Below the pieces are notes generated by a model that ran no database searches, was not told where the DNA came from, and worked only from the letters and a program-made list of their open reading frames with translations. Made by a program: the position numbers and the translations under genes. A stretch of 42,078 bases of DNA from Nautiliaceae bacterium (GTDB lineage Bacteria; Campylobacterota; Campylobacteria; Campylobacterales; Nautiliaceae): positions 1-42,078 of the forward strand of contig JAMOTL010000008.1 of the NCBI GenBank assembly GCA_027062285.1, read 5' to 3'. Shown here one piece after another: positions 4,779 through 41,619 of the stretch (position 1 is its first letter; each line of letters starts with the position of its first letter).

Positions 4779-5206
4779 AAAAAATATTAATAATTTTAGT
4801 TTCGTTTTTTATTTTTACCGGCTGTACCCAGTTGTATAACTCAAATGAAGTGGCTTTAAGTGATGTTAATACAGAGCTAACGTATCAAGAAGGCATTGTT
4901 GAAGATGTTAAAAATATTGTTTTAAAAGATGACGGTAGCGGAACAGTTATAGGGGCTTATACAGGTACAGTGCTTGGGAGTATGTTTGGTGAAGGAAAGG
5001 GAAATACAATTTCTACTCTTCTTGGAGGACTGGCCGGAGCATTTGTGGGTTATGAAGCAGATAAGGCAAATGCACAGGAATTGTTTATAAGATTGGATGA
5101 CGGTAGAAAACTTGTAGTAGTGGTAAAGGGAATAAATATTCAAAAAGGGGATAAAATTAGACTTGTTAAAAGAGGAAATAAAATAGTAAGAGTAGAAAAA
5201 ATTTAA
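4775..5206 (+). CDS. glycine-zipper (SlyB/17-kDa antigen-like) lipoprotein
   Basis: A 143-residue protein. The lipobox FTGC ends at Cys17. A glycine-zipper hairpin spans roughly residues 53-93, with G spaced every three to four residues (GTVIGAYTGTVLGSMFGEG...GGLAGAFVGYEAD). A small beta domain near 100-143 ends in KIRLVKRGNKIVRVEKI. This is the Rick_17kDa_Anti/SlyB architecture, an outer-membrane lipoprotein whose zipper packs in or against the membrane. The 4-base overlap with pqiC and a preceding AAGGAGGAAG make it a member of the pqi operon, suggesting a role in the same envelope system; that link is inference. Confidence 0.82.
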   Translation: MKKILIILVSFFIFTGCTQLYNSNEVALSDVNTELTYQEGIVEDVKNIVLKDDGSGTVIGAYTGTVLGSMFGEGKGNTISTLLGGLAGAFVGYEADKANAQELFIRLDDGRKLVVVVKGINIQKGDKIRLVKRGNKIVRVEKI

Positions 5207-14139: not shown

Positions 14140-16305
14140 ATTTTAAGAAAAGCTTTTTTTGTCTTTCTTCTCGGGGTTGTTTTATATATATTTGTATCGA
14201 ATATTTTTCCTAACGCGTCTTATGTGGGTGTATTTGGAAAATTTTTAGGTGATTTGAATATTAAACTTTTCGGATATCTTTCATATCTGTTTGATATTTT
14301 TCTATTTGTACTGCTTTTTATGTTCTTTTTTAAAAAATTTGATACAAAAAGTTCTATAAAAACTCTTGGAGTGATTATTCTTTTTTTCGATTTACTCTTT
14401 TTACAGGCTCTTATTTTAAAAAAAGGTGTAATCGGGGAACTTTTTGTAAATACGCTTAAAAATTATATAGGGATATTCGGAGTAAGTATTTTAATTGCCG
14501 TGCTTGGGTTTTGGGGGCTGTTTTTGGTGTTTGAGGATAAAATTTTTGAATATTTAAAAATAAAACAGTCTTTAAAATCACAAAAAGTTATTAAAGAGCA
14601 AAATAACGATGAGTATAAAGATGAGAGATTAGAAAGCGATCAAACACCTGAAGAAATAATAAAAATAGAAGAAACTCAAGAAGTAAATGAAGTTGAAGAA
14701 AAGATTGAAAAAAATGAAGAAGAGTTTCCGTTACTTGATAATGAAGAAATAAAAACGCCTCAACCTGAAATAAAAAAAGAAGAGAAAAAAGAAATAACAC
14801 TAGAAAAAAAAGAGACAGAAAATAAAAAAGAAATTTCAAAAGTGACTCACGTAGAGGAGTTGGAAGATACTAAAAAACTTTTATCTCAAATTGAGGTTGG
14901 TGAGAGAGAAAAACCAAAAGACTGGAAATTTCCTTCACTTGATATTTTACAAAAGCCTCCTAAGAAAAAACGTGAAGTAAATGAAGCCGAAATTGATAAA
15001 AAAATAAAAGTACTGCTTGAGAAATTAAAGCAGTTTAAAATAGAAGGTGACGTAGTAAGATATTACATAGGTCCTGTTGTTACAACGTTTGAATTCAAGC
15101 CTCTTCCTCATATTAAAGTCAGTAAAATTTTATCTCTTCAGGATGATTTGGCAATGGCTTTAAAAGCCAAATCTATCCGTATCCAGGCTCCGATTCCCGG
15201 AAAAGATGTTGTAGGAATAGAAATTCCAAACGATGAGATGGAAACTATTTATTTAAGAGAGATACTTGAGAGCGATATTTTTAAAAAGGCAAAATCACCT
15301 CTTACTTTAGCTCTTGGTAAAGATATAGTAGGTGCTCCTTTTGTAACGGATTTAAAAAAACTGCCTCATCTTTTAATAGCTGGGACTACGGGAAGCGGTA
15401 AGAGTGTAGGGATAAACGCTATGATTTTATCGCTTTTATATAGAAATTCTCCGGATGAGCTTAAATTTGTAATGATTGACCCTAAGATGCTTGAATTTTC
15501 CATTTATAATGATATTCCTCATCTTCTGACACCTGTAATTACGGAATCCAAAAAAGCCATAACGGCACTTAACGCTATGGTAAAAGAGATGGAGAGACGT
15601 TATAAGCTTATGGCAAAAACAAGAGTAAAAAACATAGAAAGCTATAATAAAAAAGTTCCGAAAGAAGAGAGACTGCCTTATATTGTGATTATAATCGATG
15701 AGCTTGCGGACTTAATGATGACCAGCGGAAAAGACGTCGAATACGCAATAGCCAGACTTGCTCAGATGGCAAGAGCCAGCGGTATTCACCTGATAGTCGC
15801 CACTCAAAGACCTAGTGTTGATGTAGTAACCGGGCTTATTAAAGCAAATCTTCCAAGCAGAATTTCTTTTAAAGTGGGGCAGAAGATTGATTCTAAAGTA
15901 ATTTTAGATCAATTCGGAGCGGAGAGTCTTTTAGGAAGAGGTGATATGCTCTTTACTCCTCCGGGAATAACAGGGCTTATAAGACTTCATGCTCCATTTG
16001 CTAGTGAAGAAGAGATAGAAAAAGTGGTGGAATTTTTGAAATCTCAAAGAGAACCGAATTATGATAATAGTTTTATTTCTCAACTTGAAAGCGAAGCGGA
16101 AGAGCTAGAAAAAATAGAAGATGTGGATGAACTTTTTGAAGAGGCAAAAGAGATTATCCTTAAAGAAAGAAGAACAAGTATCAGTTATCTTCAAAGAAGA
16201 CTTCAAATTGGATATAATAGAGCAGCGAATATTATTGAGCAGATGGAAAGGGCGGGAATACTTTCTCCTCCTAACGCAAAAGGTCAAAGAGAAATTTTAA
16301 TATAG
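14140..16305 (+). CDS. ftsK: DNA translocase FtsK (probable ATT start)
   Basis: Four membrane helices form the N-terminus, an acidic Glu/Lys-rich linker covers roughly residues 150-250, and the FtsK motor follows: Walker A GTTGSGKS near 415, Walker B IVIIIDELADLMM near 517. A C-terminal gamma winged helix comes last (TSISYLQRRLQIGYNRAANIIE). It pumps DNA at the septum for chromosome resolution. The first GTG (14224) would cut off helix 1: the frame stays open upstream and encodes AFFVFLLGVVLYIFVSNIFP. The only well-placed start is ATT at 14140, six bases after AAAAAAGGA, giving 721 residues. The ATG at 14135 is out of frame and stops after three codons. Confidence 0.93.
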   Translation: MLRKAFFVFLLGVVLYIFVSNIFPNASYVGVFGKFLGDLNIKLFGYLSYLFDIFLFVLLFMFFFKKFDTKSSIKTLGVIILFFDLLFLQALILKKGVIGELFVNTLKNYIGIFGVSILIAVLGFWGLFLVFEDKIFEYLKIKQSLKSQKVIKEQNNDEYKDERLESDQTPEEIIKIEETQEVNEVEEKIEKNEEEFPLLDNEEIKTPQPEIKKEEKKEITLEKKETENKKEISKVTHVEELEDTKKLLSQIEVGEREKPKDWKFPSLDILQKPPKKKREVNEAEIDKKIKVLLEKLKQFKIEGDVVRYYIGPVVTTFEFKPLPHIKVSKILSLQDDLAMALKAKSIRIQAPIPGKDVVGIEIPNDEMETIYLREILESDIFKKAKSPLTLALGKDIVGAPFVTDLKKLPHLLIAGTTGSGKSVGINAMILSLLYRNSPDELKFVMIDPKMLEFSIYNDIPHLLTPVITESKKAITALNAMVKEMERRYKLMAKTRVKNIESYNKKVPKEERLPYIVIIIDELADLMMTSGKDVEYAIARLAQMARASGIHLIVATQRPSVDVVTGLIKANLPSRISFKVGQKIDSKVILDQFGAESLLGRGDMLFTPPGITGLIRLHAPFASEEEIEKVVEFLKSQREPNYDNSFISQLESEAEELEKIEDVDELFEEAKEIILKERRTSISYLQRRLQIGYNRAANIIEQMERAGILSPPNAKGQREILI

Positions 16306-16313
16306 GAGAAAAA

Positions 16314-16934
16314 ATGAAAAAGTTTGTATTTTTAGGAATTGCTTCAGTGTTTTTGTTTATAGGCTGTGCTGAAAAACCTATGGCAAATAGTGTGTTGGAT
16401 TTGGCTGGAAATCAGAAAGTTTCCGGATGGGACGATAATGAAAGCGAATGTAAACCGAAAGTAATAGTAAAAGAGGTAATAAAATATAAAATACCTAAAG
16501 ATAGTGATGGAGACGGAGTTCCCGATATTAAAGATAAATGTCCAAATACCCCAAAAAATTTAGCGGTTGACCATAATGGATGCCCCATTATAACTACTTT
16601 AAGAATTAATTTTGATTTTAATAAGTGGGAGGTTAAAAAAATTTATTATCCCGATATACAAAGAGTAGCTGAAGTTTTAAAATCAAACCCACATTTAAAA
16701 ATTGAAGTTGCCGGGCATACAGATAATGTCGGAAGTGAGAAATATAATCTGTGGCTTTCTCAAAAAAGGGCTCAAGCCGTTAAAGATATTTTAGTTAAAG
16801 TTTATAAAGTAAATCCAAAAAGAATAGTAGCAAAAGGTTACGGTGAAAAATATCCGCTTGTACCTAATACCACTTCTACAAACAGAGCTCTGAATAGAAG
16901 AGTGGAAATAGTAGATATAACAAATAAAAAATAA
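16314..16934 (+). CDS. OmpA-family peptidoglycan-binding lipoprotein
   Basis: 206 residues. A lipoprotein signal ends with a FIGC lipobox (Cys18). Then come a short linker, a calcium-type TSP3 repeat DSDGDGVPDIKDKCPNTP (about 63-80), and an OmpA C-terminal domain (about 95-200). The latter carries the diaminopimelate-binding pattern GHTDNVGSEKYNLWLSQKRA near 138-157 and NRALNRRVEI near 190-199. It likely tethers the outer membrane to peptidoglycan, resembling Pal or the C-terminal part of OprF. AGGAGAAAA precedes ATG. It follows ftsK by 8 bases and ends at a bidirectional terminator. Confidence 0.9.
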   Translation: MKKFVFLGIASVFLFIGCAEKPMANSVLDLAGNQKVSGWDDNESECKPKVIVKEVIKYKIPKDSDGDGVPDIKDKCPNTPKNLAVDHNGCPIITTLRINFDFNKWEVKKIYYPDIQRVAEVLKSNPHLKIEVAGHTDNVGSEKYNLWLSQKRAQAVKDILVKVYKVNPKRIVAKGYGEKYPLVPNTTSTNRALNRRVEIVDITNKK

Positions 16935-26638: not shown

Positions 26639-26661
26639 TTTCCAAAAAAGGCTTTTTGGTG

Positions 26662-27471
26662 ATGGAATATTGGCAGCATATTTATGAGCATTTTAATCCT
26701 ATAGCTTTTACGATTTTCGGCTTCAAAGTACATTGGTATGCACTTATGTATATTACCGCTCTTGTAGTCGGTTATTTTGCGGCGGTCAAATTCGGAGAAA
26801 AATTCGGATTTGATAGGAAAACTATAGATGAATACTTCGTATGGGCTGAGATAGGAATAATTTTAGGAGCGAGAATAGGGTATTTTATTTTTTATGTTCC
26901 TGATAATGGTTATTATCTTACTCATCCGTGGGAGATGTTTAATCCTTTTGTAAACGGGAAACTGGTTGGGATTAGAGGTATGAGTTATCATGGGGCGGTT
27001 ATCGGATTCATAATTGCTACGCTTTTATATTGGAAAATAAAAAAAATTGATTTATGGAAACTTATGGATGTAGTCGCTCTTTCGGTGCCTCTTGGGTATT
27101 TTTTCGGGCGTATCGGAAACTTTTTAAATCAAGAACTTTACGGAAGGGCAACGGATGTGGCGTGGGGTATATATGTCAACGGAATTTTAAGACATCCAAG
27201 CCAACTTTATGAAGCTTTCTTTGAAGGAGTATTCAGTTTTGTTATAATATATTTGTGGTATAAAAAGATTTATAAATGTAAAGGGGAACTTATAGGACTT
27301 TATCTTTTAACTTATGGTTTTTTTAGAACATTATGCGAGCGTTGGAGAGAACCAGATCCTCAGTTAGGATTCATAATAGATCATTTAACTATGGGACAGA
27401 TTTTAAGCTTTTTTATGATTATCGGAGGAATATCGATTATTTATTTTAGGAGGAAATTATGCAAAAACTAG
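26662..27471 (+). CDS. lgt: prolipoprotein diacylglyceryl transferase
   Basis: 269 residues with about seven membrane helices. Motifs: HWYALMYI near 21-28, GARIGYFIFY near 70-79, the Lgt signature GRIGNFLNQELYGR near 149-162 and RHPSQLYEAFFEG near 174-186. It moves diacylglyceryl from phosphatidylglycerol to lipobox cysteines, so it modifies the lipoproteins predicted in this window. Start choice: TTG 26656, GTG 26659 and ATG 26662 are adjacent and in frame after AAAAGG; the ATG is taken. It overlaps the next gene by 13 bases. Confidence 0.95.
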   Translation: MEYWQHIYEHFNPIAFTIFGFKVHWYALMYITALVVGYFAAVKFGEKFGFDRKTIDEYFVWAEIGIILGARIGYFIFYVPDNGYYLTHPWEMFNPFVNGKLVGIRGMSYHGAVIGFIIATLLYWKIKKIDLWKLMDVVALSVPLGYFFGRIGNFLNQELYGRATDVAWGIYVNGILRHPSQLYEAFFEGVFSFVIIYLWYKKIYKCKGELIGLYLLTYGFFRTLCERWREPDPQLGFIIDHLTMGQILSFFMIIGGISIIYFRRKLCKN

Positions 27472-29468: not shown

Positions 29469-29705
29469 ATGAAAAAATTATTAGTATTAAGTGCTTTCGC
29501 TTTAGCAGCATTTGCATATCAAGATTGTGCTATGTGTCATAACGGTGGAATGGCAAAAAAGCTTGACACAATGACACCAGCTCAAATTGTTAAAGATATG
29601 AAAGAATTTAAAGCCGGAAAAGGTAACCCTATGATGGTAAATATAGCTAAAGCTATGAGCGATAAAGAAATTGAAGAAGCTGCTAAAAAATACGGGAAAA
29701 AATAG
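29469..29705 (+). CDS. small periplasmic monoheme cytochrome c
   Basis: 78 residues. A clear Sec signal peptide ends at about AFA (residue 16). The single heme site CAMCH comes directly after the mature N-terminus (about 20-24). Candidate sixth ligands are the Met pair in GNPMMVN near 53-59. The mature protein has only about 60 residues, small even for class I c553-type cytochromes. It could carry electrons between periplasmic partners such as the adjacent Hao or NapB. AAAAGGAG precedes ATG. It has its own promoter and terminator and ends convergent with hao. Confidence 0.88.
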   Translation: MKKLLVLSAFALAAFAYQDCAMCHNGGMAKKLDTMTPAQIVKDMKEFKAGKGNPMMVNIAKAMSDKEIEEAAKKYGKK

Positions 29706-29786: not shown

Positions 29787-31319
29787 TTATTCGTGAGTAA
29801 CAACTGGCATTGGAACTTCGTTTGCCAATGCTTTTTTAGGATCTCCGTATTTTTTAAGCATTTTCATTCTGTAATCATAAATATCTTTCATTTCTCTGAT
29901 ATCTTGCATTACTTGGAATACACCATGCCAGTGAGCATAATCTGGTGATCCCATAGCAGCACCATGTCTAAATCTTCTACCTTCATGATGCCATAGATAG
30001 TAGTAAAGTTTGAAGAATGGATCGCTCCATACGTCTGATTTGATTAGACCTTTTGATTTTAAGTCTTTCATCATTTTGTTTGCGAAAGATTTATATTGAT
30101 TGTAAATTTTTACTGCTGCGTCAACTCTTTGGAAATAGTTGTTTGTGAATGTTGCTTGGTGACAAGTCATACAAACTTTTTTCATGTCAGCTCTAGCAGC
30201 TTCTGGTCCGTTAGGGTTACCTGCTTTAGGATTTCCTCTAGTTACAGTGTTGGCGTTGATTTTTCCTCCACCTTTCCAGAATGCCCATCCAGCTGTTTCA
30301 TTTCCACCAGTTCTTAAGAAACTGTCTGGTGCCCATAGGTTCCATTTAAGTCTAAGTGAAACGTTGTGAGTAGATTTTAATCCGTTGATTGCTGCTTGGT
30401 GACATGTGAAACATGTACCTGCTCTTACAGTTTTACCAGGGATTTGTTCACCTGATTCAAAGCTGTAATCTTCTTCATTTGTTTCGAAGATATGTCCGTG
30501 TACTGAAGATTCGAATACTTCTTTCATCGGATGGTCTGGACCTAAGTGACAGTTTGTACATGCACCTGGATGTCTTGCTTCAGCAGCGCTGAATTTATGT
30601 CTGCTGTGACATGATAGACAGTTAGATACCCCACCGTCAGGATATAAGGCAGCAATACCGTCATTTGGCCATGTTGTTGCGTCAGGTCTACCTTGAGAGT
30701 CTAATTTAATAGTAGTTCCGTGACATTGAATACAAATGTTAGCTACGTTTAAATCAGCTGTTCTTGGATTTTTTTCATTTGCTTGGAATACAGGACCGTC
30801 AGTTCTGATTCCTTTTTCCATAGTTTTACCATCAACTAGGTAAGACTTGTTAGCACCTTTTAAGCTTTCATAATGGTATGAAAGTTTTGTCATTAGGTAA
30901 CCGTGTTTGTTTTTAGGAGTTGCTAGCCATTGAGCCGCACCTCTACTATGTCCAGAATTCATGTATTCTGTTACTTCTTTTGCGTGACATTTAGCACAAG
31001 TTACAGAAGATACTGCGATTTGAACTGTCCAGTTGCTTCCTTGCATTGGGTGAGCTTTGAAAGCAGTTGGATAATCTTTTGGTACAACGTGACATTCCAC
31101 ACAACCTACACCTGCTTTTGCGTGTTTAGAATGTTGCCAATCAGCAACAATTCCAGGATCTGTTGTTTTATGACACATTAAACATTGGTCGTTACTTACA
31201 CCTTTTGGGTGAAAGTTTTTTAATTTTTTAAAGTTTGGGTTTGAATCTAAGCTGTTTGCTGCGAATGCTAAGCTTCCGATAGCAGCAACGCTTAATCCTG
31301 CTGTAAGGATTTTTTTCAT
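29787..31319 (-). CDS. hao: octaheme Hao-type cytochrome c (hydroxylamine oxidoreductase family)
   Basis: 510 residues. A Sec signal peptide (MKKILTAGLSVAAIGSLAFA) and eight CxxCH sites are present (CLMCH, CVECH, CAKCH, CIQCH, CLSCH, CTNCH, CFTCH, CMTCH). The Hao-specific C-terminal block YYYLWHHEGRRFRHG...PDYAHWHG follows. It is a periplasmic multiheme enzyme. In Nautiliales and Campylobacter such enzymes are proposed to reduce nitrite or handle hydroxylamine rather than oxidise ammonia-derived hydroxylamine. An in-frame upstream start (31352) is rejected: the chosen ATG has AAAAGGAG six bases upstream and starts the signal peptide. It has its own promoter region with paired repeats and its own terminator, downstream of napD. 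Confidence 0.92.
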   Translation of the reverse strand: MKKILTAGLSVAAIGSLAFAANSLDSNPNFKKLKNFHPKGVSNDQCLMCHKTTDPGIVADWQHSKHAKAGVGCVECHVVPKDYPTAFKAHPMQGSNWTVQIAVSSVTCAKCHAKEVTEYMNSGHSRGAAQWLATPKNKHGYLMTKLSYHYESLKGANKSYLVDGKTMEKGIRTDGPVFQANEKNPRTADLNVANICIQCHGTTIKLDSQGRPDATTWPNDGIAALYPDGGVSNCLSCHSRHKFSAAEARHPGACTNCHLGPDHPMKEVFESSVHGHIFETNEEDYSFESGEQIPGKTVRAGTCFTCHQAAINGLKSTHNVSLRLKWNLWAPDSFLRTGGNETAGWAFWKGGGKINANTVTRGNPKAGNPNGPEAARADMKKVCMTCHQATFTNNYFQRVDAAVKIYNQYKSFANKMMKDLKSKGLIKSDVWSDPFFKLYYYLWHHEGRRFRHGAAMGSPDYAHWHGVFQVMQDIREMKDIYDYRMKMLKKYGDPKKALANEVPMPVVTHE

Positions 31320-31353
31320 TTTTACTCCTTTTTTGAGACTTATTCTCTTCATT

Positions 31354-31438: not shown

Positions 31439-31783
31439 TTAGTATTTTCCTTTTAAAGAACCGAAATATTCGATTTCTTCAGCTTTTTTTTCAGTATTTA
31501 ATTCTTCGACAGTTTTATTTATATCGATATTTTCTTTCATTTTTTCAAGTTCTTCTTCACAGTAACTCATATGCATATCGGCACTTATAATATAAGGCAT
31601 CTGTTCGATTTGAGTTAATTTTTCTATTTCTTCTTCTACATTTTCACCTTCAATTGTGATAATAATTACACCTTTTTGTTTATCTCCGAAATGTACTTCG
31701 CATAGGGGAGATTCTTGTAAATTTAACCATACCGCGTCATAGTGTTCAGGTCTTGTTCTTACTATTATACTTGAAATGTTCAT
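31439..31783 (-). CDS. napD: NapD, NapA maturation chaperone
   Basis: 114 residues. The N-terminal NISSIIVRTRPEH and the ferredoxin-like fold around GVIIITIEGENVEEEIEKL match NapD, which binds the twin-arginine signal of NapA in the cytoplasm and delays export until the cofactor is in place. A charged 30-residue C-terminal tail (ending SLKGKY) is longer than in E. coli NapD (87 residues). It is the last gene of the nap operon, 10 bases after napL, with AAAAGGAG before ATG. Confidence 0.9.
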   Translation of the reverse strand: MNISSIIVRTRPEHYDAVWLNLQESPLCEVHFGDKQKGVIIITIEGENVEEEIEKLTQIEQMPYIISADMHMSYCEEELEKMKENIDINKTVEELNTEKKAEEIEYFGSLKGKY

Positions 31784-31793
31784 GTGACTCCTT

Positions 31794-32741
31794 TTATTTT
31801 AATTTCCAAATTATTATTTCCGCAGGTGAAAAACTTATAATTTTTTTATCATTTAGATATTTCATACCGTTTAATGCCATTGTATGTCCTTTTAGCATAA
31901 AAAGAGGCTTTTTGTATATTGAATAAACCATTATATCGTTAGCTTCATCGTATTGAATGGCAAATGTATCTATTTTGGGAGAAAGTGCTGTTGCGTAAGG
32001 TAAAAATTTTGCTTTTAATTCTGTTTTTGTAGATCCTTTTTCAGTATAAATTGCAACTCTCATATCACTGCTGCCGTTGATTATAAAAGTTTTTTTATAA
32101 TCAAGACTTAATGTTTTATCTTTATTAAAGCCTTTAATTTCATTGATTTTTTTTCCGTTTATAACATCAATTATTTTAACAGCCCCGCTTTCATCGCCAA
32201 TCGCTGCTTTCGTTTTTGTTTCGTTCAGGGCAAAAGTAGAAAATACATAACTACCTGCTTGTATTTTGTATAGCCATTTTTTATTTTTTAAATCAAATAC
32301 ACCGATTTCATCGCTTAATAATCCGAAAAAAACTTGGTTATTATTAATAAATTCGGCTTTCATTAACGTTTGTTTTGTCGTAAAAATATGGTGTAGTTTT
32401 TTGTTTTTTAAATCGAATAAAAAAAATTCTCTTACAGCATTTTCCCCTTCTGCTAAAATTAAAAGAGTTTCGTTATTCGGGGATATATCGATAGAATAAA
32501 TTGGCATCGCAATTAAATCACCCATAAAGTCATGAATTTTAGGCAGGGAAAATTTATAAAAATTATTTAATGTATTAAAATCTTTGATAATTATTTCTCC
32601 GTTTTCAAGTCCGGCTATTAAAAATTTTTGATTATAAGTAATTTTAGAAATATAGTAATTGAATTTTATTATTTTGTTAGGTTTTAGTGTTTGATAAGAG
32701 TAAGCAAGCAGTGCGAATAATATTAATATAACTTTTTTCAT
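31794..32741 (-). CDS. napL: NapL, WD40-like periplasmic Nap accessory protein
   Basis: 315 residues. A Sec signal peptide (MKKVILILFALLAYSYQ) is followed by repeated beta-propeller units, for example LIAGLENGEIIIKDF, KAAIGDESGAVKIIDV and GHTMALNGMKYLNDKKIISF. It has no heme site and no cysteines suited to clusters. NapL is found in the Campylobacterota nap order napAGHBFLD; its role is unclear, with proposals of an accessory or assembly function. The call rests on position plus the propeller pattern, since the family diverges quickly. Confidence 0.85.
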   Translation of the reverse strand: MKKVILILFALLAYSYQTLKPNKIIKFNYYISKITYNQKFLIAGLENGEIIIKDFNTLNNFYKFSLPKIHDFMGDLIAMPIYSIDISPNNETLLILAEGENAVREFFLFDLKNKKLHHIFTTKQTLMKAEFINNNQVFFGLLSDEIGVFDLKNKKWLYKIQAGSYVFSTFALNETKTKAAIGDESGAVKIIDVINGKKINEIKGFNKDKTLSLDYKKTFIINGSSDMRVAIYTEKGSTKTELKAKFLPYATALSPKIDTFAIQYDEANDIMVYSIYKKPLFMLKGHTMALNGMKYLNDKKIISFSPAEIIIWKLK

Positions 32742-32749
32742 ATTGTCTC

Positions 32750-33226
32750 CTATAATATTTTTGTTTCAATTGCGTTTGTAGGACAGACGCTTATACAAAA
32801 TCCGCAACCGGTACATTTTTCTAAATCTATTGCCGGATTAAACATTCCGTGATATATTATAGCAGATTCTTCGCATATGTCTTGACATGAAAAACAGATT
32901 GTTTGGTTCCATGCGATACATTTGGAAGGATTTATAATAATTTCTGCATTTAATTTATTTTTTTTATTTTCTGTTTTTAAAACACCGTTTTGACATGCTG
33001 TAGCACATTCGTCACAGAAAGTACATCCGTTTTTGTCAAATTTGATTATTGGGAATTCATTTTCAATATGAATTATTTTTTCTTCGCATGCAACTAAACA
33101 ATCTTTCGTTTCACAATTTATACAGTTGATGAAATCTTCTTTTTTTTCGTAATAAGGAGGAAAGATGTAAGATTTAAAAGGAGAGGAGACTCTCCTGAAA
33201 AAATTTCTTTTCGATTTGTCTATCAT
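32750..33226 (-). CDS. napF: NapF, cytoplasmic polyferredoxin of the Nap system
   Basis: 158 residues. It holds cysteine groups typical of NapF: CINCETKDCLVAC near 35-47, CTFCDECATAC near 68-78, CIAWNQTICFSCQDIC near 103-118 and CTGCGFCISVC near 138-148. There is no export signal. NapF is thought to act in the cytoplasm on NapA, possibly in supplying its Fe-S cluster. The start overlaps the napB stop by 4 bases (ATGA). The N-terminal KSKRNFFRR contains an RR pair but no hydrophobic stretch follows, so it is not a Tat signal. Confidence 0.93.
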   Translation of the reverse strand: MIDKSKRNFFRRVSSPFKSYIFPPYYEKKEDFINCINCETKDCLVACEEKIIHIENEFPIIKFDKNGCTFCDECATACQNGVLKTENKKNKLNAEIIINPSKCIAWNQTICFSCQDICEESAIIYHGMFNPAIDLEKCTGCGFCISVCPTNAIETKIL

Positions 33227-33726
33227 TGAATTCCGGCTTTGTTTTTTAAACTTTCAAATTTATTTTCTACTGCTACCGGGAGTTTTGCCTGAGGAGTATG
33301 ACAAGTAGTACAGAAATATCTGCTTCCGGCTACTCTTCTTACTTTTTTACCGTTTTTAAAATTATCAACAAAATGATCTTCAGGCATTGGTGTTACACCA
33401 AGTGCTTTAGCATTTTGAGGCATATGACAGTTTAGACACATATTTTTTCCAACTTTGATAGGAACCATTCCTTCAACGCTGTGAGGGATCATAGGAGGTG
33501 CATCAGAAAAAGATCTTTTAAATGGTTTAACTTTTCCAGGAATCGGAGCCGGAGCATGATATTCAACAACCGGTAAATTTTCGCTTCCGTCGTTTGGATT
33601 AGTTTTTCTTATTCCTGTAACTTCAACAGTTTTGTTTGATACTTTATTTGTACTGTTTGCTTGTTGAGAACAACCAGTAAGAGCAATTAATGCCGCAGCA
33701 GCACTAATTAATATTGCTTTTTTCAT
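33223..33726 (-). CDS. napB: NapB, diheme cytochrome c subunit with lipobox
   Basis: 167 residues. Two CxxCH sites (CLNCH near 97-101, CTTCH near 139-143) and the NapB pattern MIPHSVEGM near 79-87 identify the small electron-entry subunit that feeds NapA in the periplasm. Odd: the signal peptide runs ILISAAAALIALTGC-SQQ, with LTGC a standard lipobox (Cys19, then Ser). NapB is usually a soluble secreted protein, so this version may be lipid-anchored. AAAAGGAG before ATG. It overlaps napH by 23 bases. Confidence 0.94.
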   Translation of the reverse strand: MKKAILISAAAALIALTGCSQQANSTNKVSNKTVEVTGIRKTNPNDGSENLPVVEYHAPAPIPGKVKPFKRSFSDAPPMIPHSVEGMVPIKVGKNMCLNCHMPQNAKALGVTPMPEDHFVDNFKNGKKVRRVAGSRYFCTTCHTPQAKLPVAVENKFESLKNKAGIQ

Positions 33727-34552
33727 TTTCTTCTCCTTTTTGTTTTATTATATATCTGAGTGTGAATTTTAAAGCATTATCGTTACAAACTTCTACGCAT
33801 CTACCGCAGTTTGTACATTCGATACCGCTTATATAGTCGCTTTTTTTGTTTATTATAGGTGAAAGTACCTGATTTTCAGGACAAATCATTAAACATTCAC
33901 CACAATTCGTACATTTGTCTTTGTCGTGATATACTCTGATAATACTTTTTGCCCCGATTAAACTATAAGTAGCTCCTACAGGACAAATATGACCGCACCA
34001 TCCGTTTTTCAAGACAAAAGTGTCAAAAATGAAAATCACTAAAAGCCAAACCCATCCGAATCCTATACCAAAGGCTACACCTCTTGTGAAGAAACCTATG
34101 GGATTTATGAATTCAAAAGCCGCAGCTCCTACTGCTGCAGAGACTAATAGTAATACAACCATAAAAAAATAACGGAATTTTTTAACTTTTTGTACATTAA
34201 TTAAATTATCTTTTTCATGGTGCGTTTTTCTTCTGACCCATGCCGCTAAATCAGTAATAAGATTAACCGGGCATACCCAGCTACAATAAGCCCTTCCTCC
34301 GATTAGTCCGTAAATTAAAAGGACTATTAATACTCCTATTATGACATCGGTTGCTATAACAGCACCTGCAAATATCATTTGGAGTACCGCATATGGGTCT
34401 GCTAACGGAATAATGTCAAAAAATTTTGAAAAACTTAAATTTCCTTCTAATATTTTCCAACCCCAATATTGAGCTGCAAAATACAAAAATAAAATAGTGA
34501 ATTGTGTAATACGTCTAAGGATGAGATATTTATTTTTTATTATTGATCCCAT
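33704..34552 (-). CDS. napH: NapH, membrane quinol dehydrogenase subunit
   Basis: 282 residues. About four membrane helices are followed by a C-terminal pair of [4Fe-4S] motifs (CTNCGECLMICPEN near 217-230 and CTNCGRCVEVCNDN near 248-261). Two conserved CxxxCP motifs are present: YCSWVCPVN near 92-100 and WCGHICPVG near 184-192. With NapG it takes electrons from menaquinol and can replace NapC, which is absent here. It overlaps napG by 13 bases and napB by 23. Confidence 0.95.
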   Translation of the reverse strand: MGSIIKNKYLILRRITQFTILFLYFAAQYWGWKILEGNLSFSKFFDIIPLADPYAVLQMIFAGAVIATDVIIGVLIVLLIYGLIGGRAYCSWVCPVNLITDLAAWVRRKTHHEKDNLINVQKVKKFRYFFMVVLLLVSAAVGAAAFEFINPIGFFTRGVAFGIGFGWVWLLVIFIFDTFVLKNGWCGHICPVGATYSLIGAKSIIRVYHDKDKCTNCGECLMICPENQVLSPIINKKSDYISGIECTNCGRCVEVCNDNALKFTLRYIIKQKGEENEKSNIN

Positions 34553-35361
34553 TTTATGCCTTCATTTAAATTTTCAATGGCACTTTTTCTACTTCTGCCT
34601 GTTTTTGTTGTAGTTTGAGTACTCGCTTTTCTTACTCTTTGTTGATCTTTTTCATCCCATCCTTTTACGTATCTGTCTCCCGCTTTACCTAAGAAAACTT
34701 CTCTTGGAAAAATCTTTATAGCGGCTATTTCGGTTACACAAGCATTTTCACACATTCCGCATCCCGTACAAGCATCTTCATATACGACAGGAATTCTATA
34801 TGCGTGTTTTCCTGTTCTTTCATTTTTTTTCCATTCGATTTTAATAGCTTTATCCATTTCAGGACAAGCTCTATAACAAGCCGTACACTGTAATCCCCAA
34901 AAAGCGATACAACTGCTAGGGTCAATTACGGCTACCCCCATTTTTGCGTAGTCTATTGCCACTTCACCTTTCTCATTTTTACACATATCAGGTGTTAAAG
35001 CACCTGTAGGACACGCATACATACAAGGTATGTCATCACACATAAAACATGGTCCCGTTCTTGGTATAAAATAAGGTGTCCCAATTGGTTTTTTATCTCC
35101 CGGTGCAGCTAAAAATAAAGTAACAATTTCTTTTCCATCAATTATTACTTTATTATCTCTGTTTTTACAAGCTTCGACGCATAACCCGCATCTAATGCAT
35201 GTTTTTAAAAAATCTTCTTCTTTTAATGCCCCGGGAGGGCGAAGTGTTAAAGGTTTGTCTTTGTTTTCTTCGACAAACCCGCCTACAATACTTCCGGCAG
35301 CCACAGCAGCAGCTGAGGCTTGAACCATAGAAGTTAAAAATGAGCGTCTTTTATTATCCAT
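34540..35361 (-). CDS. napG: NapG, Tat-exported ferredoxin subunit
   Basis: 273 residues. A twin-arginine signal (NKRRSFLTSMVQASAAAVAAG) precedes four [4Fe-4S] motifs: CIRCGLCVEACKN near 55-67, CFMCDDIPCMYACPTG near 105-120, CIAFWGLQCTACYRACPE near 151-168 and CTGCGMCENACVT near 198-210. It sits on the periplasmic face with NapH and passes electrons from quinol to NapB. It lies 8 bases after napA. Confidence 0.95.
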   Translation of the reverse strand: MDNKRRSFLTSMVQASAAAVAAGSIVGGFVEENKDKPLTLRPPGALKEEDFLKTCIRCGLCVEACKNRDNKVIIDGKEIVTLFLAAPGDKKPIGTPYFIPRTGPCFMCDDIPCMYACPTGALTPDMCKNEKGEVAIDYAKMGVAVIDPSSCIAFWGLQCTACYRACPEMDKAIKIEWKKNERTGKHAYRIPVVYEDACTGCGMCENACVTEIAAIKIFPREVFLGKAGDRYVKGWDEKDQQRVRKASTQTTTKTGRSRKSAIENLNEGIKWDQ

Positions 35362-35369
35362 TAAAATCC

Positions 35370-38195
35370 TTACGCTTTATAAATTTTTACTGCTGCTTTT
35401 TTATAGTCAGTTTCTTTACTTAAAGGACATGTTGCGTCTAGACATACTTTGTTAATAAGTACTTTTTCATCAAACCATGGAACAAATACTAATCCTCTTG
35501 GAGGTTTGTTTCTACCTCTAGTTTCCACTCTTGCTTTTACTTTACCTCTTCTTGATTCGATTACTACCAAGTCAAATCTTTTTAATCCAAGTGCTTTAGC
35601 GTCTTTAGGGTTCATATAACATAATGCTTCAGGCATTGCTCTGTAAAGTTCAGGTACCCTCATTGTCATAGTACCACTATGCCAATGTTCTAACACCCTA
35701 CCTGTACATAGCCATAGGTTGTAACCTTTTGTATCGTATTTAGGATCTTCAGGGTGTACCATAAACGGTCTCCAGAAAATTTTCGCTTTGTTTTTGAGGT
35801 TGATTTTACCTTTGCTTGCGATTGGCCCTTGTAGGTTACCTCTTTTAATTGTTTTTAATAACGGTCCGTAGAATGCGAATTTTTCACCAGGTTTAGCGAA
35901 TTTTCTTGCGTATGGATCGTATTCTACGTTGAATCTCCATTTTGTTTCTTTTCCGTTAACTACAGGCCATCTTAGACCTCTAACTTTATGATATGTATCA
36001 AAGTCTGCCAAGTCGTGAGCATGTCCTAGACCGAATTTTCTATATTCTTCCCAAAGTGCTTTATGTACGAAGAATCCGTATCCTTTGAACGGTTTACCGT
36101 CTTCACCCATAATTTCTCTACCGTCACCTGCAGCTTCAGTATTTTTATGCATTTTTCCAGTTTGAGGGTTTTTAGCTATCGGATCTGGCCATGGGAAATT
36201 TTTGTGATATTCAGGTCTGTTGTAAAGAACATCAAATAGTGTCATTTCAGGATCATATCCCATTTCTTTTGCTTTATCAAGTACATTTGGAAGTACTGTT
36301 CCGTCAGGAAGTTTATGTTCTTTCCAAACTTCTTTTAATTTAAATCTTTTTGAAAATTCCATCATTGTCCAAATATCTGGCATTGCTTGCCCCGGAGGTG
36401 TTACTTGTTGTCTCCAATGCTGAGTTCTTCTTTCAGCATTTCCGTAAGCTCCCCATTTTTCATAAATCATAGCTACTGGTAAAATTAAGTCTGCTACTCT
36501 TGCTGAAATTCCAGGATAAGCTTCATTAACAACAATGAAATTATCCATAGTTCTAGCAGCTTTTACCCAGTGGTTTGCATTAGCGGTATTTTGCCATGGG
36601 TTATTTACATGTACCCAAGCCCATTTAATTTTACCGTCTTCAATATCTCTCATAATTTTTAAGAAGTGGCTACCAACTTTCGGATTTAACGTACCTTCAG
36701 GTAATTTCCATAGTTTTTCAGTAATTTTTCTATGTTTTGGATTAGCTACAAGCATATCTGCCGGAAGTCTGTGTGCGAATGTACCAACTTCTCTTGCCGT
36801 ACCACACGCACTTGGCTGACCTGTAAGTGAGAATGCTCCGCTTCCAGGAAGTGATTGTTTTCCAAGTAGTAGGTGAATCATATAAATTTGTTCGTTAACC
36901 CAACTTCCTCTTACGTGTTGGTTGAATCCCATTGTCCAGAAAGATACTACTTTTCTGTTCGGATCACAGTAAAGATCAGCTAGTTTTTGAAGTTTTCTTT
37001 TGAAACTGTCAAGTGATTCATCAGGATCACCTTTTGCTACTTTCGCTACGTAATCAAGAGTATAAGGTTCAACTCCTTTTTTAAAATCTTCAAAGCTGAT
37101 TTCCCAATGCCAGAATGGTTTTTTACCGGCTGCGTGTTTCATTTCCATTTCATCACCGGCTTTCCATTTACCGATTGGACTAAGAGCTACAGCTTCTTCA
37201 TCAGTTACTTTTTTAACTACTTGTTTAACAACAGTATCTTTTTCTTTTTCCGTTACGTTAGGGTTATTAGGATTTCTCATACCGTAACCGATATCCGCAT
37301 GTCCTGTTGCAAAAATAGTATGTTTTTTTACGAAATCCCAATTTACAGCATTTCTTTTAATAATTTCTCTTGCTATGTAGTTCATTATAGCAAGGTCAGT
37401 ATTTGGTCTGAATATGATTTCCATATCAGCAAGGTTTGAACATCTATTTCTATATGTTGATAAGTTTACTACATAATATTTATCAGGATTGTTAAGTTTC
37501 GCATCCGATACTCTTGACCATAAAATAGGATGCATTTCCGCCATATTGGCACCCCAAGTAATTACCGTATCAGTAATTTCAATATCGTCATAACATCCTG
37601 CCGGTTCGTCTATACCGAATGTTTGATAGAAACCTACAACCGCACTAGCCATACAGTGTCTAGCATTAGGGTCGATGTTGTTACTTCTCCATCCACCTTT
37701 TACTAATTTTACAGCTGCGTAACCTTCTTGGATTGTATATTGTCCTGAACCGAATACCGCAACTCCTGTAGGTCCTAATTCATTATAATATTTTTTAAAT
37801 TGTTTTTCCATTTCATCAAATGCTCTTTTCCAAGAAACAGGTCTGAATTTTCCGTTTTTGTCAAATTCACCTTTATCGTTCATTCTTAGAAGTGGTTGAG
37901 TAAGTCTGTCAGCACCGTACATAATTTTAGCGTTGAAGTAACCTTTAATACAGTTGATACCTCTGTTTACAGGACTTTCAGGGTCCCCTTTAACCGCTAC
38001 GATTTTATCGTCTTTAACCGCTACCATAATACCGCATCCGGTACCACAGAAACGACATACGGCTTTATCCCATTGCCATCCTTCTTGAGATTCTTTTGCT
38101 GCTGCTTCAGCATCTTGTGGTATGCTTAAGCCCGCTGCACTTGCTGCTGCTACAGCTGCTGTTGTTTTTAAAAATTCTCTTCTGTCCATTGACAT
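35370..38195 (-). CDS. napA: NapA, periplasmic nitrate reductase catalytic subunit
   Basis: 941 residues. A Tat signal (DRREFLKTT near 4-12, then an Ala-rich stretch to about 33) precedes a [4Fe-4S] site formed by Cys47, Cys50, Cys54 and Cys82. Cys181 in NARHCMASA ligates Mo in the bis-MGD cofactor. The molybdopterin-binding C-terminal region ends with [16 protein letters not shown] and [17 protein letters not shown]. It reduces nitrate to nitrite. The longer frame opening at 38297 is rejected: ATG 38195 has AAGGAG six bases upstream and starts the Tat signal. It is first in the operon napAGHBFLD. Confidence 0.97.
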
Positions 38196-38346
38196 ATGCT
38201 CTCCTTTTTGAGATAGTTGCAAGATTTTACGTAATAATGATACAACTTTTATGGGCATTTGTGGTAAAATTTGTACAAAAATTAATTTTGAAGGCACTTT
38301 ATTGGCACTTTTTTAACATTATTTTAAGATTTCAAGGAGTTTAAAT
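38196..38346. promoter_or_regulatory. divergent control region of nap and mod operons
   Basis: This 151-base gap separates the starts of napA (-) and modA (+). It holds the direct repeats at 38293-38311 (listed separately) and a 10-bp palindrome TTTGTACAAA at 38270-38279. A possible napA -10 is TATCAT (38242-38237, minus strand). For modA, TAACAT (38314-38319) is the best -10 that still leaves its AAGGAG ribosome site in the message. No strong -35 boxes are seen on either side, as expected for activated promoters. Confidence 0.5.
38293..38311 (+). repeat. 11-bp direct repeat, candidate response-regulator site
   Basis: GGCACTTT at 38293-38300 and again at 38304-38311, an exact copy with an 11-bp period. 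It lies where a -35 box for modA would be and about 100 bases upstream of napA. The hao promoter has the same arrangement with one substitution. One helical turn between half-sites is typical for OmpR-family dimers. Confidence 0.6.
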
Positions 38347-39066
38347 ATGATAAGAAAAGTCTTGTTTTCAATTTTATTAGTAAAATTTTTAATGGCTGGA
38401 AATATTTTTTTGGCTACGTCCACAAATGTAAGTTATGCTTTAGATGAGCTTATAAAAGAATTCAAAAAAGATAATCCTAACATTAATATAAAAACCACAC
38501 TTGCCAGCAGCGGAAAACTTACAGCTCAAATTATGCATGGGGCTCCTTATGATATATTTATGTCTGCGAATATGAAATATCCCGATTTACTTTATAAAAG
38601 AGGAATCGCTATAACAAAACCTAAAGTATACGCAAAGGGTGCCATTAGTTTTTTCAGTGTAAAATATGAAAATCCGGATTTTGATACTTTAGAAAAAGTA
38701 AGACAAATAGCAATAGCTAATCCTAAATTTGCTCCTTATGGAAAAGCAGCCATAGAGGCGTTTAAAAATAGAGGCATATATGATCGTATAAAAAATAAAT
38801 TAATATATTCAGAAACAGTTACGGGAGTAATTCCGTATACGATACATTCGGCAGATGTAGGGATTGTGGCAAAATCCAGTTTATTTTCACCGAATATAAA
38901 AAAGATAGGTAAATTTTATTCCAAAGATGTCAATCCTAAATATTATACCCCTATTAAACAGGGAGTCGTTTTATTGAAACATAATGAAGATGCTAAAAAA
39001 TTTTATGATTTTTTATTTACTAAAAAAGCGAAAAAAATTTTTAAAAAATACGGATATATAGAATAA
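38347..39066 (+). CDS. modA: ModA, molybdate-binding periplasmic protein
   Basis: 239 residues. A Sec signal peptide (to about residue 17, FLMAG) is followed by the ModA fold: ATSTNVSYALDEL near 23-35, TLASSGKLTAQIMHGAPYDIFMSAN near 51-75 (Ser contacts for the oxyanion), NPKFAPYGKAAIEAF near 125-139 and DVGIVAKSS near 171-179. It captures molybdate (or tungstate) for the ABC importer, supplying the Mo that NapA needs. AAGGAG lies seven bases before ATG. It overlaps the next gene by one base. Confidence 0.93.
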   Translation: MIRKVLFSILLVKFLMAGNIFLATSTNVSYALDELIKEFKKDNPNINIKTTLASSGKLTAQIMHGAPYDIFMSANMKYPDLLYKRGIAITKPKVYAKGAISFFSVKYENPDFDTLEKVRQIAIANPKFAPYGKAAIEAFKNRGIYDRIKNKLIYSETVTGVIPYTIHSADVGIVAKSSLFSPNIKKIGKFYSKDVNPKYYTPIKQGVVLLKHNEDAKKFYDFLFTKKAKKIFKKYGYIE

Positions 39067-39443
39067 TGAATATTATAAAAGCTCAATTAATTGATAAACA
39101 TTCTCTAAAAAACATTAATCTGCTTACTTTTAAAAGCGGAGATTTTTTAATAAAAGTTTTGATTTTACAAATGAATGTCTCTTTAAATATCGGAGATATA
39201 GCGGATTTAAGTATAAAACCTACAAAACTTTTTTTAACGAAAGAAAAATGTAATTTTGAAAATGTGTTAAAAGTAAAAATAAAAGATATTCAAAAAGGTG
39301 AAATAGTGTCATCCGTGATAATCGAGTTCGATCATAATACTCTTGAAGTTATAATGTTAAGCGAGATGGTGGATTTTGATAAAGAAGCATATCTTTTATT
39401 TAAATCAAGCGATATTTCAATATTGGGGAAAAGTGATGGATGA
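39066..39443 (+). CDS. TOBE/Mop-like molybdate-binding protein
   Basis: 125 residues. Two short beta-rich halves resemble the TOBE (molybdopterin/molybdate-binding) domain: VLILQMNVSLNIGDIADLSIKPTKLFLTKE-type pattern split over residues 32-61, and VLKVKIKDIQKGEIVSSVIIEFDHNTLEVIML near 67-98. It has no DNA-binding helix-turn-helix, so it is not a full ModE. A similar protein lies between modA and modB in Campylobacter. It probably binds molybdate in the cytoplasm, for storage or control. It overlaps modA by one base and modB by eight. The family call is moderate. Confidence 0.75.
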   Translation: MNIIKAQLIDKHSLKNINLLTFKSGDFLIKVLILQMNVSLNIGDIADLSIKPTKLFLTKEKCNFENVLKVKIKDIQKGEIVSSVIIEFDHNTLEVIMLSEMVDFDKEAYLLFKSSDISILGKSDG

Positions 39444-40122
39444 GTTGAATTTTACGCCTTTTTTACTTTCTTTTAAGCTTGCTTTTACCGTTACGATAAT
39501 ATTGTTGGTAATAGGGATACCTTTTGCGTGGTATTTATCAAGAACAAAGTCTAAAATAAAACCTGTAATTGAAGCTTTGACGGCATTGCCTATAGTTTTG
39601 CCTCCTTCGGTATTAGGTTTTTATTTATTGGTTATTCTTTCGACGTCCTCACCTATAGGAAAATTTTTTTGGGAATATTTCAATATGAAACTCGTATTTA
39701 GTTTCGAAGGTTTGGTAGTGGCTAGTTGTATATATTCTTTTCCTTTTATGATTCAACCTTTACAAAACGGCTTTGAAAATATTGACAAAAATATAATAGA
39801 AGCCTCCTATTTAAGTGGAAAAGGTCCTATAATGACACTTTTTAAAGTAATTTTGCCAAATATGAAAGATTCGCTTTTAACGGCGATCATTATAACTTTT
39901 GCCCATACGGTCGGTGAATTCGGAGTGGTTTTGATGGTTGGAGGTTCGATTCCCGGAAAAACGGAAGTGGCAAGTGTAGCAATATATGATTTTGTGGAAA
40001 TGATGGATTATGAAAAAGCTCATATTTACAGTGCCATAATGCTTGTTATCAGTTTTTTAGTTCTTTTTGCCGTATATTTCATTAATCATAAAAATAAAAG
40101 AAAATTCAATGATGTATATTAA
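39436..40122 (+). CDS. modB: ModB, molybdate ABC transporter permease
   Basis: 228 residues with five to six membrane helices. The ABC permease motif EAA--G-- appears as IIEASYLSGKGPIMTLFKVILP near 125-146. Early conserved elements include LALKLAFTVT-like SFKLAFTVTI near 11-20 and the ALPIVLPPSVLGFYLL block near 51-66. A longer frame opening at 39376 is rejected: ATG 39436 has GGGGAAAAG upstream and gives the family N-terminus. It overlaps the TOBE gene by 8 bases and modC by 14. Confidence 0.94.
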   Translation: MDELNFTPFLLSFKLAFTVTIILLVIGIPFAWYLSRTKSKIKPVIEALTALPIVLPPSVLGFYLLVILSTSSPIGKFFWEYFNMKLVFSFEGLVVASCIYSFPFMIQPLQNGFENIDKNIIEASYLSGKGPIMTLFKVILPNMKDSLLTAIIITFAHTVGEFGVVLMVGGSIPGKTEVASVAIYDFVEMMDYEKAHIYSAIMLVISFLVLFAVYFINHKNKRKFNDVY

Positions 40123-40972
40123 TGTAAGAAAGACGCTTCACGGAAGTGAAGGTGGAATAAATCTTGAATGTGAATTCGAATTAAAACATAAAGAATTTTT
40201 AGCGATATCAGGACCCAGCGGAAGTGGGAAAACTACACTTTTAAGAATAATTGCCGGGCTTGAAAAAGCCGAAGGAATAATAAAAGTAGACAATGAAATA
40301 TGGCTTGAAAATAAAAAGTTTCTTTCCCCTCAAAAAAGGAGTATAGGATTTGTTTTTCAAGATTATGCTCTTTTTCCTAATATGAATGTTTTAGAGAATT
40401 TATTATTTGTAAATAAAGATCAAAAACTTGCTAAGAGGTTACTTGAAATGACTGACATTTTCCAGCTTAAAAACAGATATCCGAATATGTTAAGCGGTGG
40501 TCAAAAACAAAGAGTCGCTATTTGCAGGGCGCTGATGAGAAAACCGAAAATACTTTTATTGGATGAGCCTTTTTCCGCTCTTGATCCTGATATGAGGGAA
40601 AAACTTCAAGACGACATAGCTTTACTTCATAAAGAGTTCGGACTTACAACTATAATGATTTCTCATTCTCCAAGCGAAATATATAAACTTTCTGATAAAA
40701 TGATACAGTTAAATAAAGGTAAAATTGAAAAAATCGATACACCTTCTCAGGTTTTGTTGAAAACCGACACAAGTGAAAAATTTTCTTTGGAAGGTATGAT
40801 TATTGATATAATAAGAGCCGATATATTGAATGTGGCTATTGTCAGTATTGGTAATAGAATCGTTGAAATAGTTATTTCAAGAAATGAAAACAAAAATTTA
40901 AAAATCGGAGATAAAATTATAATATCTACAAAAGCATTTCATCCAAATATAAGAAAAAAGGAACAAAAGTGA
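40109..40972 (+). CDS. modC: ModC, molybdate ABC transporter ATPase
   Basis: 287 residues. Walker A GPSGSGKTTLLR near 33-44, the Q-loop FQDYALFPN, the ABC signature LSGGQKQRVAICRAL near 125-139 and Walker B ILLLDEPFSALDPDM near 147-161 with the H-loop ISHSPSE. The C-terminal 65 residues resemble a Mop/TOBE domain (EGMIIDIIRADILNVAIVSIG), which often binds the oxyanion and throttles transport. The ATG at 40109 is taken (40112 is equally possible; no strong ribosome site, so likely coupled to modB). The end overlaps the response regulator by 4 bases. Confidence 0.95.
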   Translation: MMYINVRKTLHGSEGGINLECEFELKHKEFLAISGPSGSGKTTLLRIIAGLEKAEGIIKVDNEIWLENKKFLSPQKRSIGFVFQDYALFPNMNVLENLLFVNKDQKLAKRLLEMTDIFQLKNRYPNMLSGGQKQRVAICRALMRKPKILLLDEPFSALDPDMREKLQDDIALLHKEFGLTTIMISHSPSEIYKLSDKMIQLNKGKIEKIDTPSQVLLKTDTSEKFSLEGMIIDIIRADILNVAIVSIGNRIVEIVISRNENKNLKIGDKIIISTKAFHPNIRKKEQK

Positions 40973-41619
40973 AAATATTATTGGTAGAAGATGATGTGTT
41001 TATCGGAGAATCAATAAAAGATTATTTTGAACTTCAAGGTAACAGAGTCGATTATTATTCTTCTCCTATAAAAGCTCTTGAGGAGATTTATCCGAATAAT
41101 TACGATATTTTTTTAATAGATATCAATATGCCGGGAATGAACGGTTATGAATTTTATAAAGAACTAAAAAATTACGCAAGTGACGTGCCGGTAATTTTTA
41201 TAACCGCTTATTCTGATATCGATCATGTCGAGCAGGCTTTTGATTTAGGGGCAGCCGATTATATTAAAAAGCCGTTTGATTTAAAAGAACTTGAGCTCAG
41301 AGTAAAAAGGCTTGTATTTAAAAAAACAAATGAAGTGAAAATAACCGAAAATTATAGATTTGATTTGAATAAACTGAAGCTTTTTTATAAAGATGAAGAA
41401 GTTGAACTAACTCAAAATGAAAAATATTTCTTAGAAATTTTGGTAAAAAACATAGGGCAAGTTGTTGATAGTGAAACTCTTAAAGATTATGTATGGGATG
41501 GAAAAGATATCTGCTCAAATACAATAAGAACGCACGTGAAAAAACTTAGAAACAAATTAAAAGAAAATTTTATTAAAAATGTAAGAGGGAGCGGTTATAA
41601 AATTGAAAAACAGCAATGA
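40969..41619 (+). CDS. OmpR/PhoB-family response regulator
   Basis: 216 residues. The receiver domain (about 1-115) has the acidic pair VEDD near 6-9, the phospho-acceptor Asp51 in IFLIDINMPGMNG, the conserved Thr in FITAYS near 77-82 and Lys in IKKPFD near 99-104. The C-terminal winged helix (about 125-214) shows LTQNEKYFLEILVKN, SNTIRTHVKKLRNKL and VRGSGYKIEK. The GTG start overlaps modC by 4 bases (GTGA), so it is made together with the molybdate importer. The kinase gene follows with a 17-base overlap. Targets are not proven; the paired repeats before hao and modA are natural candidates. Confidence 0.93.
   Translation: MKILLVEDDVFIGESIKDYFELQGNRVDYYSSPIKALEEIYPNNYDIFLIDINMPGMNGYEFYKELKNYASDVPVIFITAYSDIDHVEQAFDLGAADYIKKPFDLKELELRVKRLVFKKTNEVKITENYRFDLNKLKLFYKDEEVELTQNEKYFLEILVKNIGQVVDSETLKDYVWDGKDICSNTIRTHVKKLRNKLKENFIKNVRGSGYKIEKQQ

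Follow-up and report, generated by a model that had tools for sequence, protein, structure and literature searches.

The NapB subunit of the periplasmic nitrate reductase from this Nautiliaceae bacterium ends its signal peptide in a type II lipobox and, to judge from its sequence, is very probably lipidated at Cys19. We consider it fairly likely that a lipid anchor holds NapB on the inner membrane next to NapGH and so tethers the NapAB pair. NapB is usually regarded as free between the two membranes. A lipid-anchored NapB would change the geometry of the step from the quinol pool to NapAB and would bear on the purification of NapAB (with detergent or without). The window is the whole stretch of DNA analysed, 42,078 nucleotides of contig JAMOTL010000008.1 (assembly GCA_027062285.1).

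The nap cluster and the napB gene

The nap cluster of the window is complete and lies on the minus strand. The cluster and its neighbours are as follows, from napA to napD and outwards.

35370..38198, minus strand: napA, catalytic subunit (NF010055 NapA, 1437 bits, cut-off 904; Tat signal model)
34540..35361, minus strand: napG, periplasmic 4Fe-4S protein (NF007012 NapG, 313 bits, cut-off 269)
33704..34552, minus strand: napH, inner-membrane ferredoxin-type quinol dehydrogenase subunit (NF007013 NapH, 359 bits, cut-off 234)
33226..33726, minus strand: napB, dihaem cytochrome c subunit, precursor of 167 residues (PF03892, open reading frame; stop codon 33223-33225)
32750..33226, minus strand: napF-like ferredoxin (TIGR00402, 76 bits, below the cut-off of 102; named by position and similarity)
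31794..32741, minus strand: WD40/beta-propeller protein in the napL position, signal peptide present, lipobox absent (beta-propeller Pfam matches)
31439..31783, minus strand: napD, chaperone (PF03927, 80.5 bits, cut-off 28)
29787-31352, minus strand: Hao-like cytochrome with eight haem motifs, adjoining napD (Multi-haem_cyto, 69 bits)
38347-41619, plus strand: putative molybdate ABC transporter (ModA, ModB, ModC) and response regulator reading frames, divergent from napA (named by eye)

The napL-position protein had no NCBIfam match, and gene order is the ground for calling it NapL. The Hao-like cytochrome scored far below the NCBIfam cut-off for hydrazine dehydrogenase; we take it to be probably the hydroxylamine-type enzyme of Nautiliaceae nitrate ammonification. 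Gene order and parts are the same as in the napAGHBFLD clusters of other Campylobacterota (Wolinella, Campylobacter; order from the cited part of PMC13223375), and in E. coli too nap is an operon with napA, napG and napH.

The napB reading frame (33223-33726) runs along the minus strand; the plus-strand frame at the same coordinates is full of stops. Its product matched PF03892 with 107.2 bits (cut-off 25.1) and NCBIfam PRK11586 with 65.4 bits, below the cut-off of 230. The nearest solved relatives are 1jni (Haemophilus), 1ogy_B (Cereibacter) and 3ml1_B (Cupriavidus); with these and with E. coli NapB (b2203), all dihaem subunits of NapAB, it shares PF03892, two CxxCH sites and a PPxIPH motif. 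Both haem c sites expected of the family are present (CLNCH and CTTCH), and napA, napG and napH are encoded alongside. The features of the gene are listed below.

33733..33738, minus strand: Shine-Dalgarno sequence AAGGAG before the napB ATG (19/19 family members)
33673..33726, minus strand: signal peptide, residues 1-18, with a positively charged n-region (MKK) and a hydrophobic h-region (sequence; alignment of 19 family members)
33670..33681, minus strand: lipobox L16-T17-G18-C19 (Gly-Cys in 18/19 family members; silent TGT/TGC variation)
33628..33669, minus strand: variable polar linker, residues 20-33, rich in Ser, Gln, Asn, Thr and Lys, proposed tether (family alignment)
33424..33438, minus strand: haem c site 1, CLNCH, residues 97-101 (C97, L98, C100 and H101 invariant in alignment A1, 7 rows)
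33298..33312, minus strand: haem c site 2, CTTCH, residues 139-143 (C139, C142 and H143 invariant in alignment A1)

AAGGAG lies upstream of the ATG in all 19 family members, which makes the start codon secure. The end of napH overlaps the start of napB by 23 bases and stops short of the lipobox codons. An AlphaFold2 model of NapB, built on a seven-row alignment, reached a mean pLDDT of 37 and was set aside; the tether was judged from the alignment alone.

A lipobox in place of a signal peptidase I site

NapB is usually, though not by definition, a soluble periplasmic protein cut by signal peptidase I. In the window NapB an LTGC lipobox takes the place of that cleavage site, as the sequence-only reading had noticed: the precursor begins MKKAILISAAAALIALTG-C19-SQQ (N-terminus MKKAILISAAAALIALTGC-SQQ), with the n-region, the h-region and the terminal [GA]-C that define a lipoprotein signal. 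The codon of the predicted lipidated Cys19 is 33672-33670 on the minus strand, and no good A-x-A site was seen by eye near it. A TssJ lipoprotein model also matched residues 7-54, with a score below its cut-off. The stretch that follows the Cys varies strongly, with a mean pairwise identity of 0.48 in alignment columns 27-48 vs 0.72 in the remaining protein (19 family members).

The genome encodes the enzymes that a lipoprotein needs. Lgt, which would lipidate Cys19, is encoded in the window itself, LspA is present, and Lnt is just over its cut-off (133.4 vs 132.9). Together with the conserved Gly-Cys, these enzymes make lipid anchoring, which had been proposed from the signal peptide, the natural reading. 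We then surveyed a 261 kb sample of the genome, window included, with 282 reading frames and a home-made signal rule. In this sample, 65 of the 282 reading frames looked as if they carried a signal and no further membrane span, and 10 of these 65 had a lipobox. The NapB signal is similar to those of the nine other lipobox reading frames. Among the six signal-bearing, CxxCH-containing reading frames, some of which are probably not cytochromes, NapB is the sole lipobox protein. The relevant genes of the window are the following.

26656..27471, plus strand: lgt (PF01790, 225.9 bits, cut-off 24.9)
16275-16931, plus strand: OmpA-family (Pal-like) lipobox protein
4766-5203, plus strand: glycine-zipper lipobox protein

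In the mechanism that we propose, Lgt would diacylate Cys19 of the Sec-exported precursor, LspA would cut before Cys19, and Lnt would probably N-acylate it. Once the haems were added, the dihaem domain would hang from the membrane by its short, variable polar linker. Since NapA binds NapB, the NapAB pair would be tethered instead of diffusing freely. The membrane concerned would most likely be the inner one, in its outer leaflet, next to NapGH.

Conservation within the Nautiliaceae

From 21 Nautiliaceae genomes we obtained 19 NapBs; the two genomes without NapB are incomplete assemblies (57 and 70%). The Gly-Cys of the lipobox was found at the same position in 18 of the 19 proteins, while conservation is poor in the residues right behind it. 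Just 14 of the first 70 columns in the alignment are the same in at least 18 rows, the lipobox Gly and Cys among them. The Cys codon itself varies silently (TGT in 15 genes, TGC in 3). When the 19 family N-termini were shuffled, each with its own Cys included, a correctly placed lipobox appeared in 1.55% of the shuffles. Judged on these sequences, the lipobox in Nautiliaceae NapB is more than chance. A genome-contig search with the window NapB found six loci, of which four belong to named Nautiliaceae MAGs (67-78% identity), and no relative was found in viral contigs.

A single Nautiliaceae NapB among those read lacks the Cys (L004, with GLLFGNTDG; genome G020); it comes from the sole member read of its genus. 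Its signal may stay uncleaved.

Distribution across the Campylobacterota

A PF03892 profile search of the class gave matches in 251 of 298 genomes. We read 95 NapBs from 94 genomes and 51 genera, a non-random sample made of the 19 Nautiliaceae proteins, the 30 best-scoring PF03892 matches, 26 proteins from further loci and 20 chosen for extra genera. By pattern and inspection, 65 of the 95 have a lipobox and 30 are without. Every member read has it in 31 genera, part of the members in 2, and no member in 18. By family code, the counts are 18/19 in f1, 9/19 in f2, 16/23 in f3, 0/5 in f4, 6/10 in f6, 5/7 in f7, 3/3 in f8, 0/1 in f9, 5/5 in f10, 2/2 in f11 and 1/1 in f13. Genus g13, with a lipobox in 11 of the 13 NapBs read, holds anchored-type and unanchored-type NapB inside one genus. 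L096 (LAFLSGC-TSN), which also has a lipobox, is presumably the NapB of Wolinella succinogenes DSM 1740, a Nap model.

A stricter first pattern likewise gave 65 of 95, but with L063 and L076 and without L022 (LNAC) and L084 (ISAC), which we counted as lipobox proteins although they miss that pattern. The candidate Cys of L063 and L069 belongs to the haem site of a fused domain, and that of L076 lies inside the h-region with the cleavage site later; all three were rejected. Four rows were left out, one with no open NapB frame (L075) and three that are second pieces of proteins already counted (L077-L079). The fused domain is an N-terminal monohaem cytochrome c domain, found in three NapBs (L056, L063, L069; three genera, families f4 and f9) that thus have three haems and no lipobox.

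A lipobox was found in none of 13 NapBs from outside the phylum (E. coli, Citrobacter, Vibrio, Cupriavidus, eight alphaproteobacteria and one Nitrospirae MAG), a small sample that leans on plasmid records. The precursors of E. coli, Cereibacter and Cupriavidus, all among these 13, differ in this from the window NapB. Within the Campylobacterota, the NapB on a Sulfuricurvum kujiense plasmid has no lipobox.

The absence outside the phylum, together with the lack of the Cys in about one third of the Campylobacterota NapBs read, is what could be expected if the Cys were incidental, with signal peptidase I cutting nearby and NapB soluble as in E. coli. We find this improbable. It does not account for a Gly-Cys kept in 18 of 19 family members through silent codon change, nor for the residues around the Cys in the 65 lipobox NapBs, where -1 is always Gly (43) or Ala (22) and -3 is mostly Phe or Leu (45/65), and the window NapB offers no good A-x-A alternative by eye.

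On a NapB tree (96 ingroup rows, 119 columns), the lipobox trait needs at least 18 changes, compared with a mean of 26.3 in shuffled data, and 0 of 200 shuffles were as low. This is a poorly resolved gene tree, and the parsimony count of 18 cannot separate gain from loss. Orthologues lacking the Cys, which the sequence-only reading had named as contrary evidence, are limited to 1/19 in the family (L004) and 30/95 in the class. They fall in separate lineages, a pattern that looks like switching and not like noise. The lipobox was confirmed for the Nautiliaceae, but it is not confined to the Nautiliales: the trait belongs to much of the phylum (65/95), and one Nautiliaceae genus, that of L004, is without it. 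As read from these sequences, the lipobox is no Nautiliales oddity: it is widespread among Campylobacterota NapBs and has been switched repeatedly.

Since 30 of the 95 NapBs, L004 included, have no Cys, the anchor appears unneeded for Nap in general; being repeatedly lost or regained, it would tune the enzyme and not be essential to it. The same pattern bears on the idea that lipidation serves NapB assembly or stability instead of electron transfer, which is compatible with either membrane. Such a role has a parallel in H. pylori CagT, reported to be destabilised when its lipidation is lost (PMC7240156, in part), but the lipobox is repeatedly absent without loss of NapB, against a strict need, and we hold this explanation to be unlikely.

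Which membrane, and by which electron route

The Ser at +2 had led the sequence-only reading to expect outer-membrane sorting by default, and to call that location odd for a protein fed by NapGH. The +2 sorting rule is, however, the rule of the E. coli LolCDE system and is not established for Campylobacterota. In the 65 lipobox NapBs the +2 residue is G, A, N, S, T, Q, V or K, and Asp was found in 0/65. Because the other lipobox proteins of this genome carry the same kinds of +2 residue, this residue does not discriminate between membranes, so that the default is not supported here and the supposed oddity involves no contradiction. By the E. coli Lol rule NapB does not qualify as an outer-membrane lipoprotein: there is no +2 Asp and LolA was found (a weak match, but over its cut-off), but a search of this genome turned up no LolB, the E. 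coli control being positive. H. pylori, another member of the Campylobacterota, uses LolF and has no LolB, according to the cited part of PMC7240156.

NapB could be a lipoprotein that LolA carries to the outer membrane and that receives its electrons through a soluble carrier, which we regard as possible but rather unlikely. LolA is available, the Ser-Gln at +2/+3 is no E. coli-type retention signal, and the Pal-like protein of the window also has an ordinary +2 residue. The carrier could be a small monohaem cytochrome encoded at 29469-29705 of the window, weakly like the domain fused to the non-lipobox NapBs L056, L063 and L069; this likeness suggests that a cytochrome of this kind may donate electrons to NapB. 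The similarity is weak, however (best E 8e-7 when only three sequences were searched), the genome yielded no LolB, the NapB linker is short, and the likely donors sit elsewhere, NapH and the NrfH-like protein belonging to membrane-bound families and NapG working with NapH.

The electron donor of NapAB in Campylobacterota is disputed, being either NapGH or Qcr, and the nitrate respiration of C. jejuni and W. succinogenes depends on Qcr (both from the cited part of PMC6195509). A published qcr primer, used to look for C. jejuni, matched 0 of the 49 genomes of that genus. The Nautiliaceae differ from these species: bc1 cytochrome b (PF00032) was not found in the genome of the window (G000), nor in 5 of 5 other Nautiliaceae (G001, G013, G015, G017, G020), and it is present in each of the 56 Campylobacterota genomes tested from outside the family. 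A NapC/NrfH-type tetrahaem protein is encoded elsewhere in this genome (L127:661-1224). With no bc1, quinol electrons must reach NapB via NapGH or a NapC/NrfH-type cytochrome, and since both candidate donors are membrane-bound, an inner-membrane tether makes sense: it would keep NapB near its quinol-side donor. Given lipidation, and on this indirect evidence together with the operon partners NapG and NapH, NapB is probably retained at the inner membrane. Faster electron transfer may be the benefit of the anchor, although we put this forward weakly. The absence of bc1 was rejected as the cause of the anchor, as anchored and unanchored NapBs both occur with bc1 in the class, the anchored ones in genomes outside the Nautiliaceae.

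On balance, we lean towards a general picture in which the 'periplasmic' nitrate reductase would be lipid-tethered in most Campylobacterota. The NapB tether would be an evolutionary switch that has turned from signal peptidase II to I, and perhaps in the other direction too, on many independent occasions, with tethered and free chains in sister lineages. In the deep-sea Nautiliaceae, the absence of bc1 would go together with a direct route from NapGH to tethered NapB. In this family, which has Nap and no bc1 cytochrome b, NapGH-dependent electron flow could not be confused with Qcr.

Comparison with known systems

Published models present NapB as a periplasmic subunit, with no mention of a lipid in the cited parts of PMC6195509 and PMC13223375. 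NapA and NapB also go unmentioned in the main text of a blue-native study that surveyed the membrane complexes of C. jejuni (PMC7717971). More generally, no report of a lipoprotein NapB was found in the open-licence literature, within the parts considered (including PMC3475470, PMC6195509, PMC13223375, PMC9816155, PMC4585668 and PMC7717971), and an earlier remark may exist.

Gram-positive denitrifiers offer a likeness in their lipoprotein cytochromes c: NosC, cytochrome c551 and the predicted lipoprotein NrfA of Bacillus serve nitrogen-oxide respiration as electron carriers or as reductase subunits, on a membrane to which an N-terminal lipid holds them. These proteins belong to other families than NapB, in hosts without an outer membrane, and for B. 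azotoformans NapB the description goes no further than an N-terminal signal sequence (all from the cited part of PMC3475470).

A NapB glycopeptide has been reported from Campylobacter hepaticus, the protein being listed as periplasmic (PMC9816155, in part); the NapB of L028, which is without the Cys, contains exactly this peptide.

Sister lineages with and without the NapB anchor are natural pairs. One genome (G147) holds two NapB types (L050 and L076). The L050-type NapB groups closely with the NapB L109, which is encoded alongside a nap cluster on the Sulfuricurvum kujiense plasmid pSULKU01.
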